Below, in pieces: positions 53,145 to 59,359 of a stretch of 64,000 nucleotides of DNA. The translations under genes and the position numbers were made by a program. The notes under the pieces are model-generated. The model ran no database searches. It saw only the letters and a program-made list of their open reading frames with translations, and had not been told where the DNA came from. Location: assembly GCF_001548035.1 (NCBI RefSeq), contig NZ_AP014723.1, positions 1,674,001 to 1,738,000 of the forward strand, given 5' to 3'. Source of the stretch: Sulfurospirillum sp. UCH001. Its GTDB lineage: Bacteria > Campylobacterota > Campylobacteria > Campylobacterales > Sulfurospirillaceae. The stretch's first letter is position 1, and every line of letters begins with the position of its first letter.

Positions 53145-54050
53145 CTAAGTTAATCCAATTATGTTTACCGTGATAATAGTTTCTACTGGTCCACTCATGA
53201 GTGTAGAGTGTTTTTGTTTGTACCCATAGACGAGTAAATCATCAGAATACCCTGCCATGAATACAACACCCTTCCCTCTTGCATCGTTAAGTATCTTATT
53301 AAGAGCCATAGAATTTTTTGTTGGAGTGAATAAATCCAAATCGAGTGTTGGAGCATAATTTCCTTCTACCAGAGAAGTATCCCCAGTTGACGTGTCAGTT
53401 GCTACCGTTGAGTAATCCAACGCTCCTACACTAACTCCCCATTTTGTAATGCCTACTTCTTTGACTTTTCCGCAACAAAAAATACCGCACTTTGCATCAC
53501 TATATCCGTTATCAATAGTGATTATAAGGGATATGTTTCGTGTCGCTGTGGTACGCTCATAGATAAACTGTGTTTTTCTGTTTTCAATCCAATCACCGTA
53601 CCCATAATCAAAAGCATCGGAAATATCTCTAATCAAATTTTTTGTAAAAGTTTCAATGACTTGATGTGTGTTGTTGTCGATAACTTGGATAGTTACGCTT
53701 TGAGCATCTAGGTTTCCAAGATAAATAGCTTGTGACTCATACGCCAACATTTCCACAGTTATGTTCCCATTTCTAACGCTTTGTGATGTAAGGTATTTGT
53801 CAAACATTTTGTACTTGTTTGTTGTACCTAAAAATAACCATTTTCCATTTGGATTTTTTGTGGCATCATAAATAGAAGTTCTAGGATCAACACCAGTATT
53901 GGCAACTAAACATTTATACTCTCCGTAGTTATCAGGTAGATAAACTTGCGCACCAATTGCATATGCTGTTGAAGCATTCCAATCAGAATATGCTGAATTA
54001 CTAATATTTGAGGAAGTTAGCGTAAATGCTTGTGGAAATAGTATTTTCAT
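53145..54050 (-). CDS. Distal tail / tail-tip protein
   Basis: 301 residues, mostly beta. Near the N-terminus DWNASTAYAIGAQVYLP has the W-Y-G-V spacing of chitin/carbohydrate-binding modules. The C-terminal part (LDLDLFTPTKNSMALNKIL) is not a family I recognise. It overlaps the tape measure stop by ATGA and is the only gene between tape measure and fibre, so it probably combines distal-tail and adsorption roles (inference). Confidence 0.62.
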   Translation of the reverse strand: MKILFPQAFTLTSSNISNSAYSDWNASTAYAIGAQVYLPDNYGEYKCLVANTGVDPRTSIYDATKNPNGKWLFLGTTNKYKMFDKYLTSQSVRNGNITVEMLAYESQAIYLGNLDAQSVTIQVIDNNTHQVIETFTKNLIRDISDAFDYGYGDWIENRKTQFIYERTTATRNISLIITIDNGYSDAKCGIFCCGKVKEVGITKWGVSVGALDYSTVATDTSTGDTSLVEGNYAPTLDLDLFTPTKNSMALNKILNDARGKGVVFMAGYSDDLLVYGYKQKHSTLMSGPVETIITVNIIGLT

Positions 54051-57000
54051 ACGATAGCCTTTCCAAATTGCGCCTCTTTTAGAATAGATTGCAATGTTTT
54101 TACGCTTTGAACTAAAAGATTGATTACGGTGTCATTCTGTCCTGTTTGTGTGGTAACTAATTGCTTAAGATCAATCTGCTGTGAGGTATTGTTTACCTTT
54201 GTGAGCATCGTATCAACTGGCAATGAATACGTTGTGCTACCGTTTAGACTATCAAGTGCATCTTTGTACTTCTTTGTTGCATCAGTTGACTTCATGAGTG
54301 CATCGCCAAGACTAGCCCATGCTTCGATAGTATCTTGTGTGAAGTTATTTTTAATAGCTGCATCATACATTGATAAGAAGTTATCAACGGTTACAGAACT
54401 TGCACCTAAACTTGAAGCCAACGCCTCGAAGTCTTTTTGCAAATAGTTTGATGTAAACGCTAATTGCTCAACTGTTCCGCTACCTAAAAACCACTCTGTA
54501 TAGCCTCGTTTATAGGTTGTATATCCGCTTACTGCCGTTGATATGGCTTCGGTAATCGTTTTATCAATTTCTGCTGCGTAATCTACCCAACTTTGATAGA
54601 TTGTACTTAAGTTATTTGGGTTAATAGAAACTAAGAACGCTTGCACAACATTAGTGTCTAGGAAGCTTTGTAAGTTTGAAAAACGACCACCTGAAACAAC
54701 AAGATCGTTATAGTTTCCTAACTGTTCTAAAAGGTAGTCATAAACTCCTATTGTGCTTTTAATGGCTTTGATTTCTTCATCGCTAAATGGAGTGTAATTT
54801 GTCCAAGAAGAACTTGAAAACCATGATTTTTTCTTGTAACTAGTCCAATACTGACCTGATGCACTATCTGCTGTTGCATTTCCTAAAATGTCAATACCTG
54901 CGCCTGTTTGTTTTGTTTTACCAAAAATACCGCCAAGAACTGATCCAATAATTGATCCTGCGATAATTCCTATTGGACCACCCCATAAACCAAGCGCACC
55001 ACCAAGACCACCCAATGCCCCACCGATTGCACCAGTCGTTCCTGCATAGGTATCAGCACCAAAAATCTTATCTCCAAGCCATCCAGTTCCATAACCAACC
55101 GCACCACCAATAAGACCACCGCTTAACATTGATCCTGCTGTCATGGCTGTTGGTAGTCCACTCATACCTGCGTAAGCAAAAGGATTAGCAACGCCTGCTC
55201 CAAAGCTCATCAATCCGCTTGCAGCTCCACCCATTCCCATGCTTGCTAAAACTCCGCTTGCTGTTTGGAAACCAGTGATAATACTTCCGCTAATGCCTGC
55301 AGTAATCATGCTATATGCTGTTTTTAAAGATGAGGCGGTATTTAAAAGAGATAACGCATCGCTTCCTTGGCTTGTAACTGTTCCGCTTGCTTGATCGATT
55401 ACAGTACCGCCTGCTGTTTTAATAACTCCATCACTTACAGTTGCTCCTGAACTAAGGAGTGAACTCATATCACTAGCGCTTAATGTTGATCCTACCAATG
55501 AAGCAGCTCCACCAAACCCAGTAAATGTTTTGAAGTTGTTTACAATACCGCCTGATATATCACTTGCTAGTGTATTTGTAAGCTGTTTTCTAATGTTCTT
55601 AAAAAATGAATTCAAGTCTAAACTATCACCATTAAAAGCGTTTTCAATGCTATTAGTTAAACTGTTCTCAAAAGAAGTATAAAATCCTTTTTCTAGCTTA
55701 AACGATAGTGTCTGTTCTTGAAGTTTCAAGTTTTTTAGACTGTTAATTTTGTCTAACAATCCTTGTAGTTCTTCCGATGTAGCTTTACCTTCCAATGATA
55801 GCTTCCCAAGCCATTCAAGCTGATTTTGATACCATGCTTCTATTTGAATATCAGAAGTAGCGCCATACATCTTTTCACGCTGCGCTATAAATTGGTCGTT
55901 TATTTTTTCGTTTGCATCGAATAACTTTACTTGCCACTCATTAGATTTTTTATACTTTTCTTCTTCTTGCTTAGTGAATTTTTCTACTGTTTCTTTATTG
56001 AGCGCTTGTGTTTTTGCTTGGTACTCTTTAGTGATAAGCTCTTTAGCTCCTTGAAGTTTCCCATACTTTTCTAAATCTTCATTGTATTTTTTTTCAAGTT
56101 CTATGTATGGTTTTGAAAATGCGTCTTGTTCAGATTCTGCTATTGAATATCCTATATCTAGCTTTCTTTTTCCCCATTCTTCATATAGCTTATCAGAGTC
56201 CTCTTGTTCTTTTTTTTGTAGTTTTAATTTATCATCTTGTTCTTTTTTATATAGATCATATCTTTCTTCTAATTGCTTCTTTGTCATTTCTATTGATCGT
56301 GTAAATCTATCATCTAAGTTATCAACTAAACTATAACTATCAATTGTTGGTCTTGATGGAACTATGCTATCAATTGATTTTTTAGTTGATTTGGCTTTTT
56401 CTTCTACTATACCTAATGATCCTGCTACACTTTCAACCCACTTACTCATTCCACTATAAGAGCTATCAATGATTTTAGACCATTCTCCAGCAGTTTTATC
56501 AACTATTCCTAAAGTTTCAGATAGCACCTTATATAGTGCATCTCCTGCGCCTTGATTTGCTTTAAGTATAGATGCCAATATCCCATTATCTTCTAATTTT
56601 ATATTCCCTTTTTTTGCTAATGAATCAAGTTCAGTATTTGAGTTTTTAAGTGTTTTTGTAAAATTATCTATACTTGAAGAAATAGATGTTATAGATTCAG
56701 ATAATGAAGAAGATGCGCCTGTAGATTTATCAATAAAACCTATTAACTCCATTAATGAGTTAGACATTGTAGTCATTGACTGTCCGACTGTTTTAAGCAT
56801 TTTATCAAAGTCTTTATCTACCGCACTTGCTTGTTTTTCTAATGCTTTTATGATAATTTCTGTTGACAGTTCTCCATCTTCTGCAGCTTTTTTAAACGCT
56901 TGTGACGTCATACCACTACCTGCTACAATAGCTTGGTAAAGTGCTGGTGTTTGTTCACGAATAGATGCTAGTTCTTGCCCTACAGATTGAAAGTTACCGC

Positions 57001-57514
57001 TAAACGCTTGCCCTAGTTGGATAATAGCATTATTCATACTCTCGGCAGTACCACCGCTTACAATCATTGCTTTATTGATTGTCCCTGTAATACTTAATAG
57101 CTTATCTTGTGAAATATTGTAGTCTTTGGTAGCTATGGCAATACGAGAATATAAATCTGCTGTTTCTTTAAAACCTAGTCGTGTTTGTTGTGAGATATTG
57201 AATAGTTCTTTATGCGCTTTTGTCTGTTCTTCTATGGAACTTGTAACCAATCTAAGCCTAGACTCAACGGTTGTCATTTTGTCAGCAGTTTCTACATAAT
57301 ATTTCCCTAATTTCGCTACTTCATATGCTGCTGCTGCAAAACCTATACTTTTTAGAGTCGATTGTAGTGAAGTAAAGGACGATCCTAAATTGTCAGAAGA
57401 TTTTCTAAGTGAGTTGGTGGAAGCTTCGGCTTTTTTTGCTTCCTCCGTAAACTTTCGGATTGCTACAGTACCATTGTCGTGGACTTGTATGTCTATGTTT
57501 AGAACTGCAGCCAT
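54047..57514 (-). CDS. Phage tape measure protein
   Basis: 1155 residues. The N-terminal third matches the phage tape-measure N-terminal domain (VESRLRLVTSSIEEQ, NNAIIQLGQAFSGNFQSVGQ, EQTPALYQAIV); then long coiled coils (about 380-600), a Gly/Ala-rich hydrophobic stretch (about 700-870) that could insert in the membrane, and a C-terminal helical domain. Its length sets tail length; by the usual rule of about 0.15 nm per residue the tail would be near 170 nm. GAGGGG precedes the ATG but can pair with an upstream arm. Confidence 0.92.
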   Translation of the reverse strand: MAAVLNIDIQVHDNGTVAIRKFTEEAKKAEASTNSLRKSSDNLGSSFTSLQSTLKSIGFAAAAYEVAKLGKYYVETADKMTTVESRLRLVTSSIEEQTKAHKELFNISQQTRLGFKETADLYSRIAIATKDYNISQDKLLSITGTINKAMIVSGGTAESMNNAIIQLGQAFSGNFQSVGQELASIREQTPALYQAIVAGSGMTSQAFKKAAEDGELSTEIIIKALEKQASAVDKDFDKMLKTVGQSMTTMSNSLMELIGFIDKSTGASSSLSESITSISSSIDNFTKTLKNSNTELDSLAKKGNIKLEDNGILASILKANQGAGDALYKVLSETLGIVDKTAGEWSKIIDSSYSGMSKWVESVAGSLGIVEEKAKSTKKSIDSIVPSRPTIDSYSLVDNLDDRFTRSIEMTKKQLEERYDLYKKEQDDKLKLQKKEQEDSDKLYEEWGKRKLDIGYSIAESEQDAFSKPYIELEKKYNEDLEKYGKLQGAKELITKEYQAKTQALNKETVEKFTKQEEEKYKKSNEWQVKLFDANEKINDQFIAQREKMYGATSDIQIEAWYQNQLEWLGKLSLEGKATSEELQGLLDKINSLKNLKLQEQTLSFKLEKGFYTSFENSLTNSIENAFNGDSLDLNSFFKNIRKQLTNTLASDISGGIVNNFKTFTGFGGAASLVGSTLSASDMSSLLSSGATVSDGVIKTAGGTVIDQASGTVTSQGSDALSLLNTASSLKTAYSMITAGISGSIITGFQTASGVLASMGMGGAASGLMSFGAGVANPFAYAGMSGLPTAMTAGSMLSGGLIGGAVGYGTGWLGDKIFGADTYAGTTGAIGGALGGLGGALGLWGGPIGIIAGSIIGSVLGGIFGKTKQTGAGIDILGNATADSASGQYWTSYKKKSWFSSSSWTNYTPFSDEEIKAIKSTIGVYDYLLEQLGNYNDLVVSGGRFSNLQSFLDTNVVQAFLVSINPNNLSTIYQSWVDYAAEIDKTITEAISTAVSGYTTYKRGYTEWFLGSGTVEQLAFTSNYLQKDFEALASSLGASSVTVDNFLSMYDAAIKNNFTQDTIEAWASLGDALMKSTDATKKYKDALDSLNGSTTYSLPVDTMLTKVNNTSQQIDLKQLVTTQTGQNDTVINLLVQSVKTLQSILKEAQFGKAIV

Positions 57515-57542: not shown

Positions 57543-57578
57543 ATTTTATGATATGGAAAACTAAGCTTTGTGGTTAAG
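57543..57578 (-). promoter_or_regulatory. Phage late promoter box, copy 1 (tape measure)
   Basis: Minus strand: CTTAACCACAAA (57567-57578), 18-nt spacer, TAAAAT (57543-57548), 28 nt before the tape measure ATG. One of four copies with identical spacing. Confidence 0.6.
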
Positions 57579-58351
57579 GCTAAGTTGTGAACAATAGAAC
57601 GATCCAAGGCTTAGAATAAGTGGTATAAATTCTTTTTGGATATGATCTTTACTGTATCCATCAGGACAAGCCCATTTTATAAAATCTTTTAGAGCTTCAT
57701 ACTTCAAACCAGTTGCACCATTAAAACCATAATCAAGAGGACAACGTAAGATAATATCTACTATCGCAATACTCCAGCTATCCTCTAAAAATATAACGGT
57801 TGAGTCTGGGTTATCCTTGATAGCTTTTTTTGCGCTTTTACTTAAAGATCGCTCACCAGTTTTTCTAATATCTTGACATAGCCACTCTTTAATTCGTTCT
57901 ATTTTTCCTGCTTTTTTTCTTGGATAGCCTCAAAGATTGTTTTTTGCACTTTTAAGTATCCGTAGCTCTCTGCAAGCGCAATAATTTTGTCTTTATCATC
58001 TCCAGTAAGACAGATATTCATTTTCCATTTTACAATGTCGTTTTCTTTATCTTCTGGCTTTGTTTTTTCTCTGTGGTCAATTAATTTATCTTCAATATCA
58101 AATTTCACATTGGTTAGTTTTTCAACTTGTTCCCAATCTTCTTTTCGTTTTGATATTTCTAACTGCTCGATAGTACGTTTTAACTTCTTTTCTAGGTCAA
58201 AACCTTTTTTAACTGCATCCGAGTACTCTTTATGCTTCTTTTCAAGCTCTTTTATCTCTTTGCTGTTAAGATCACGGTAAAAACCTTTAAGAGGGGTGCT
58301 ATCCTCAAACTCTTTCATCTCAAACTCATGTACTGGTAATAAAACTGTCAT
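57561..58351 (-). CDS. Tail assembly chaperone GT fusion (programmed -1 frameshift product)
   Basis: Reading 147 codons from ATG 58351 to the A AAA AAG heptamer, slipping -1 at 57911 and continuing for 116 further residues to TAG at 57561 gives a 263-residue product. The extension has no start codon of its own (begins AGKIERIKEWLCQDIRKTGE) and is open and protein-like (SWSIAIVDIILRCPLDYGF), which explains an otherwise gene-free 384 bp. This matches lambda G/GT-type chaperones, which hold tape measure and tail tube subunits before assembly. The family call rests on position and recoding, as these proteins are poorly conserved. Confidence 0.78.
57899..58351 (-). CDS. Tail assembly chaperone G (unshifted product)
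   Basis: 150 residues, helical and charged (LEKKLKRTIEQLEISKRKED), ending FEAIQEKKQEK. Located between tail tube and tape measure, the standard place for this chaperone. Start ATG 58351 has AAGGGG 7 nt upstream; an in-frame ATG at 58387 would translate a duplicated Shine-Dalgarno block and is less likely. Confidence 0.78.
   Translation of the reverse strand: MTVLLPVHEFEMKEFEDSTPLKGFYRDLNSKEIKELEKKHKEYSDAVKKGFDLEKKLKRTIEQLEISKRKEDWEQVEKLTNVKFDIEDKLIDHREKTKPEDKENDIVKWKMNICLTGDDKDKIIALAESYGYLKVQKTIFEAIQEKKQEK
57911..57917 (-). promoter_or_regulatory. Slippery heptamer A AAA AAG
   Basis: In frame as GAA-AAA-AAG, identical to the E. coli dnaX -1 slippery site, 9 nt before the zero-frame stop. 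An AAGGGGAAA-type internal Shine-Dalgarno stimulator is not evident directly upstream; AAGCAGG lies at the site itself. Confidence 0.75.
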
Positions 58352-58393
58352 ATCTTTCCCCTTGATTGTTTTTCCCCTTGATTTCATATTTCA

Positions 58394-58420: not shown

Positions 58421-59359
58421 TTAAGCGATTGTTCCGTACTTAATTTGGAATTGGTTTTCACCAGTAGCATCACCTTGCAGTGAATACTTGACTGTGAACG
58501 CTTCTTTACCGTTGATGCTTGTTTCTGTTGGAGTACCATCAACCACAGCTTGACCGCACGTAATTTGTACTTTTTTACCATTAACTGCACCAGCTTTAAT
58601 GATAACTGGAACTGTTGATCCTGCTGCAAACGCTGTGTAAACGTCCTCATTCTCTTTTAGGTATGTGACTTCAAGTGTAGAGTCAAAATCTACCCTTTCA
58701 TAGTCTTTATACCCTACAAAGTATTGTTTCTGATTGTCATTTGATTGTGTAAGTGTGAATGATTGAGCTTTTACTGCTACACCGCTAATGGTTACTGTGT
58801 CAATAGATTTCAATACCAGGAGCAATGTTTCATCTATTGATGTAGCCGATGGGTTATCTTCCGCAACGCTTGTAATGGTTGTAAAACCATTAATAACAGC
58901 ACTTTGCTTGATAGGCTCTCCAATGTTACCGCTAATAGTTAGCGTACCTACTGCGCCAGTTAATACACGTTTTCTTCCATCTCTCCAAATTGCTACGCTT
59001 GATAAATCGCTTGGTTGAGATTGTGAAGGAACATAAGAAACTGATAGCCCAGTTTCAATTGCTTCATCAAGTCCACAAATTTTATAAATATCATCCCATA
59101 CAGGAGGAGTATCAAGTGCAGCACCAGTTCCATCGTTTCCAAGCAAGAAACCTTCTACTGTTACCTCTCCAGTCGTATCGTCTGTATTCATCCATGTTGT
59201 TTTATTGCCTAACTTTCCGTTAAGCTCTTTAAAGCTTCCACTTCCTGACGTAGGTGTTACCCTTACATCTTCATTTGTAACTGATACTGCATCCGTTCCT
59301 GTTGCTGTTCCGCCATATTTTACGGCAACAACTACCTTTTTGCTATCATAAAGTGCCAT
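58421..59359 (-). CDS. Major tail tube protein
   Basis: 312 residues, beta-rich and Gly/Thr/Val-rich, no signal peptide. The start MALYDSKKVVVAVKYGGTA and the internal SGSFKELNGKLGNKTTW fit phage tail tube proteins; a C-terminal part (TVPVIIKAGAVNGKKVQI) may be an added Ig-like domain. Position after the tail-completion genes and before the chaperones agrees. It has its own promoter-like box upstream. Confidence 0.82.
   Translation of the reverse strand: MALYDSKKVVVAVKYGGTATGTDAVSVTNEDVRVTPTSGSGSFKELNGKLGNKTTWMNTDDTTGEVTVEGFLLGNDGTGAALDTPPVWDDIYKICGLDEAIETGLSVSYVPSQSQPSDLSSVAIWRDGRKRVLTGAVGTLTISGNIGEPIKQSAVINGFTTITSVAEDNPSATSIDETLLLVLKSIDTVTISGVAVKAQSFTLTQSNDNQKQYFVGYKDYERVDFDSTLEVTYLKENEDVYTAFAAGSTVPVIIKAGAVNGKKVQITCGQAVVDGTPTETSINGKEAFTVKYSLQGDATGENQFQIKYGTIA

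Follow-up and report, generated by a model that had tools for sequence, protein, structure and literature searches.

The gene that precedes the tape measure gene in a siphovirus-type prophage of Sulfurospirillum sp. UCH001, a Campylobacterota host, very likely forms a G/GT tail assembly chaperone cassette, as judged from its sequence, in which a programmed -1 frameshift would add a second domain (T) to the product of the zero-frame gene (G). The mechanism is well known, being the textbook case of lambda and many other tailed phages, but the protein pair itself is unannotated. The window analysed here is the whole stretch of 64,000 nucleotides (positions 1,674,001 to 1,738,000 of contig NZ_AP014723.1), and all of the features described below lie on its minus strand.

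The zero-frame gene, encoding a G-like chaperone of 150 aa, was located at 57899..58351, based on the open reading frame and on the homologues at L009/L010/L033 and in genome G010 (L034). It starts at the ATG at 58351 with AAGGGG ahead, although a longer mechanical reading frame can be drawn from the in-frame ATG at 58387 upstream, and its 3' end reads ...CAA GAA AAA AAG CAG GAA AAA TAG, the TAG being at 57901-57899. Within this end the heptamer A AAA AAG is located at 57917-57911, 9 nt ahead of the zero-frame stop, and its first base is the third position of a codon, the phase needed for tandem slippage. No stop interrupts the -1 frame between the TGA at 57932-57930 and the TAG at 57563-57561, which gives the T-like extension (57561..57911), 116 residues past the slip, so that the predicted fusion comprises 147 + 116 = 263 aa, about 30 kDa. 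On the sequence, the slip site, its phase and the coordinates of the extension, all as described in an earlier note on this DNA, proved correct when derived anew. Neither ATG nor GTG occurs in the -1 frame, and the sole TTG is codon 74 of 122; an ordinary gene caller is therefore unable to start it, and the earlier note had likewise expected a standard program to miss the extension. At the base composition of the window, an open frame continuing for about 112 codons beyond the zero-frame stop is expected by chance with P of about 1e-4, and AAAAAAG or GGGAAAG in phase within the short overlap with P of about 0.02. These odds for a single locus are modest, but they are overtaken by the conservation described below.

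The genes on both sides are in agreement with a tail assembly role. The probable tube (major tail) protein is encoded at 58421..59359; its product is homologous to the structural protein of the Nitratiruptor phages NrS-1, NrS-2 and NrS-3 (BLASTP 27% identity, E 2e-22), the gene of which directly precedes G in those phages, and the assignment also leans on the annotation of L004/L005. On the other side lies the tape measure gene at 54047..57514 (1155 aa; PF20155 TMP_3, E 4e-50; phrog_339, E 4e-67), related to that of NrS-3. The gene order is therefore tube protein, G, T and tape measure, and the position between tail tube and tape measure, on which the earlier note had relied, is confirmed by homology on both sides. 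Upstream of the tube gene, the connector, capsid, scaffold and head morphogenesis genes follow in the usual order.

Relatives were gathered by tblastn, IMG/VR scans and whole-genome searches. In the search of genome contigs a single sequence gave no match, whereas an alignment used as the query gave four loci. The extension has homologues in three sources: NrS-1/2/3 of Nitratiruptor; contigs of IMG/VR, among which one is identical to the window; and genomes that belong to the same family and order. After removal of duplicates, a total of 18 distinct relatives with a mappable junction remained, all of them Campylobacterota phages, prophages or contigs. The extension is in the -1 frame relative to the upstream gene in 18/18, and the -1 relation, the open frame and the slip site are kept down to about 26-36% protein identity. 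Lack of conservation of the extension frame in related phages had been set beforehand as grounds for giving up the proposal; the opposite was found. A canonical slippery heptamer is present at the homologous junction of 15/18 relatives, G GGA AAG in 14 and A AAA AAG in one, namely L009 (= L010 = L022 = L033), where it is in the same phase as in the window. Its place within the gene is also conserved, GGGAAAGCA of the relatives corresponding to AAAAAAGCA of the window, and the distance from the start of the heptamer to the end of the zero-frame stop is nearly constant at 22-28 nt in the relatives checked, against 19 nt in the window. The remaining three of the 18 carry non-canonical heptamers, GGGCAAG in L018 and GGGGAAG in L027 (1480-1530) and L031 (4974-5020), and this counts against the G/GT reading; with GGGGAAG, full re-pairing in the -1 frame is possible only for the P-site tRNA.

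The upstream partner varies more among the relatives than T does. In the window, L009, L029 and L034 it has roughly 150-160 aa; the others have a shorter G of about 95-105 aa. At L034 (G010:C1:1484000-1487200) the G homologue is located directly upstream of the tape measure gene, and its -1 frame has no T extension; this one G homologue that runs straight into the tape measure is a further point against the G/GT reading. A 19th locus, L032:3744-4080 in a Sulfurimonas MAG, carries only the C-terminal part of T in one open frame, either a disrupted copy or an assembly error, and was left outside the count of 18 as its junction was not mappable.

The frame of the extension is a real coding frame. 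Between NrS-1 and NrS-2/3, T is under purifying selection (dN 0.029, dS 0.44), and its differences are distributed 5/3/20 over the three codon positions with the third position dominant. The structure predicted by AlphaFold from 13 sequences is a confident fold (mean pLDDT 89.6, pTM 0.81), the G and T halves being predicted apart. When this fold was compared by Foldseek with predicted viral structures (BFVD), the top three matches were each a 'tape measure chaperone', from Enterobacter phage F20, Klebsiella phage Solomon and Salmonella phage Shivani, and further proteins of the same name were found lower in the list. The first two matches had a probability of 0.99 with E between 0.04 and 0.09, and since none fell below 0.001, the matches support the fold and are not proof of homology; the identity of T to the three chaperones is 12-15%, a resemblance of fold only. 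A fold search of T against the PDB gave no match of weight. Sequence searches with both G and T against Pfam, PHROG and PDB likewise gave nothing of weight and matched no known chaperone family, which counts against the G/GT reading; on the same empty searches, T probably represents a family that these three libraries lack. The product of the zero-frame gene is highly charged and mostly helical, the helices being taken from a low-confidence model, and because this model is unreliable (pLDDT 53), the fold searches covered T alone. Taken together, the conserved -1 frame, the purifying selection, the fold of T and the gene order support the proposal that the pair is of the G/GT chaperone type.

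The fusion could also be made without ribosomal frameshifting, if RNA polymerase slipped on the run of seven A at the window junction (57918-57912) so that some mRNAs carried one base more or two bases fewer. Such slippage is known at poly-A runs longer than seven (PMC3711429), with A7 at the short end of the known cases, but most of the relatives have G GGA AAG at the homologous junction, where there is no homopolymer, and at both heptamers the precedents among tail chaperones are regarded as ribosomal (PMC3483164, PMC7618472). We therefore consider transcriptional slippage improbable. Less probable still, and very unlikely to apply, is translation of T from a start of its own, with the overlap as ordinary translational coupling. 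In the records of the NrS phages T does have a CDS of its own that starts internally, but the only ATG, GTG or TTG of the window frame is the TTG at codon 74/122, and in nearly all relatives the conserved sequence of T already starts at the slip site, with the first start codon lying well downstream; a separate start was rejected, as the frame has no start codon before codon 74. Finally, the extension might be a remnant in decay, or reflect a sequencing frameshift within what was once a single gene. This is scarcely credible and largely refuted by conservation, since, even though a homopolymer adjoins the junction, the same -1 junction recurs in independent isolates, metagenomes and assembled genomes and the frame is under purifying selection.

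The proposed ribosomal -1 frameshift has several known counterparts. In lambda, a small gene between the major tail protein and the tape measure gains T by a -1 slip near its end (PMC5009743, PMC7618472), and the lambda heptamer, G GGA AAG, is the one used by most of the relatives (PMC7618472), the window itself having A AAA AAG. The window differs from lambda in that its G is 150 aa long and charged, and its T belongs to a different sequence family. A AAA AAG has been established or proposed as the slip site of further tail chaperone genes, including those of AH2, VT1-Sakai, PVL, psiM2, ul36 and the Paenibacillus larvae phages (PMC3483164, PMC6003738), which share with the window both the heptamer and the kind of gene; no sequence relation of the window G or T to them was detected by family searches. 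True homologues exist in NrS-1, NrS-2 and NrS-3 (genes 41/42 and 57/58) for T (about 30%), for the tube protein and for part of the tape measure, and these phages have the same gene order as the window and an in-phase G GGA AAG. They are unlike the window in that their G is about 99 aa and a stem of 7 pairs is possible after their slip site. In the NrS records (L004/L005/L006:3055-3324) T is annotated apart from G as a shortened gene that starts internally, both appear as hypothetical proteins, and the word frameshift is absent from the NrS genome paper. The present analysis amends how a tail assembly gene pair is annotated, both in a Campylobacterota prophage and in the phages of Nitratiruptor, and adds an apparently unlisted family of T domain.

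Based on the frame, the slip site and the neighbouring genes, we infer that frameshifting occurs, at a rate such that the majority of ribosomes would translate G and terminate at 57899 while a minority would move back one base at A AAA AAG, with tRNA-Lys re-pairing from AAA AAG to AAA AAA, and produce the G-T fusion; the chaperone function of the products we likewise infer. In lambda, low-level -1 slippage gives gpGT, which binds the tape measure protein by its G part and recruits tube subunits by its T part (PMC5009743). By analogy, the window G would form a coat on the tape measure protein, tube subunits would be brought in through the T part of the rare fusion, and the ratio of G to GT would therefore matter in tail assembly. 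Mature lambda virions contain neither gpG nor gpGT. In E. coli, few heptamers shift as readily as A AAA AAG, a single tRNA-Lys reading both AAA and AAG (PMC5009743). The tRNA-Lys genes found in the host genome all have the anticodon UUU, and no CUU anticodon was detected among 45 tRNA matches, which is the arrangement that makes this heptamer slippery in E. coli (PMC5009743).

The RNA around the slip site differs between the window and most of its relatives. Downstream RNA structure was sought at the window junction and none was found (z 0.74), a difference from most relatives that counts against the G/GT reading. Among the relatives, a G-type slip site is present in 17/18, and in 14 of these 17 a perfect stem (7-10 pairs, with G-U counted as a pair) can form, starting 2-12 nt past the heptamer (L004:2983-3040, L005, L008, L013, L014, L017, L003, L016, L020, L021, L026, L027, L028 and L031). 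The zero-frame stop is usually in or beside the loop, and the stems differ in sequence and register. Local folding averaged over the G-type relatives peaks exactly at the slip site, with a mean z of -2.3 against about -0.3 (sd 0.3) elsewhere, and in 9/17 it is stronger than in synonymous-codon controls (p < 0.05); these hairpin statistics are not independent, because the sequences of the relatives are related. Covariation was looked for in six sequences of one register, and no pair was changed on both sides. What speaks for the hairpin is therefore its position and the synonymous-codon control, not covariation. The two GGGGAAG loci, L027 and L031, have very strong hairpins.

Both members with A AAA AAG, the window and L009, are without the hairpin. 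With two sequences only, this link between A AAA AAG and the missing hairpin is not significant (about 0.06, calculated by hand). It is conceivable, although we hold it doubtful, that the group contains two versions of one recoding signal, G GGA AAG with a hairpin that is kept in presence while its stem shifts in sequence and register, and A AAA AAG without a hairpin, the stronger slip site as if making the stimulator unnecessary, so that the ratio of G to GT would be held constant by exchange of parts, with T as a chaperone domain family outside Pfam and PHROGs. The remaining interest of the locus is modest and lies in the unlisted T family, the mis-annotated relatives and this testable exchange between slip-site strength and hairpin, for which the small natural series of G GGA AAG with and A AAA AAG without hairpin offers a test of how phages tune the frameshift ratio.

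A Shine-Dalgarno-like GAGG is located at 57928..57931, 10 nt upstream of the heptamer, a spacing which we take to be that of the dnaX stimulator. Compared with a dnaX-like signal, composed of a Shine-Dalgarno element, A AAA AAG and a hairpin, the window has the GAGG and the heptamer without the hairpin. The GAGG comprises four bases that are not conserved among the relatives, and it is possibly, if weakly, a stimulator of the frameshift.
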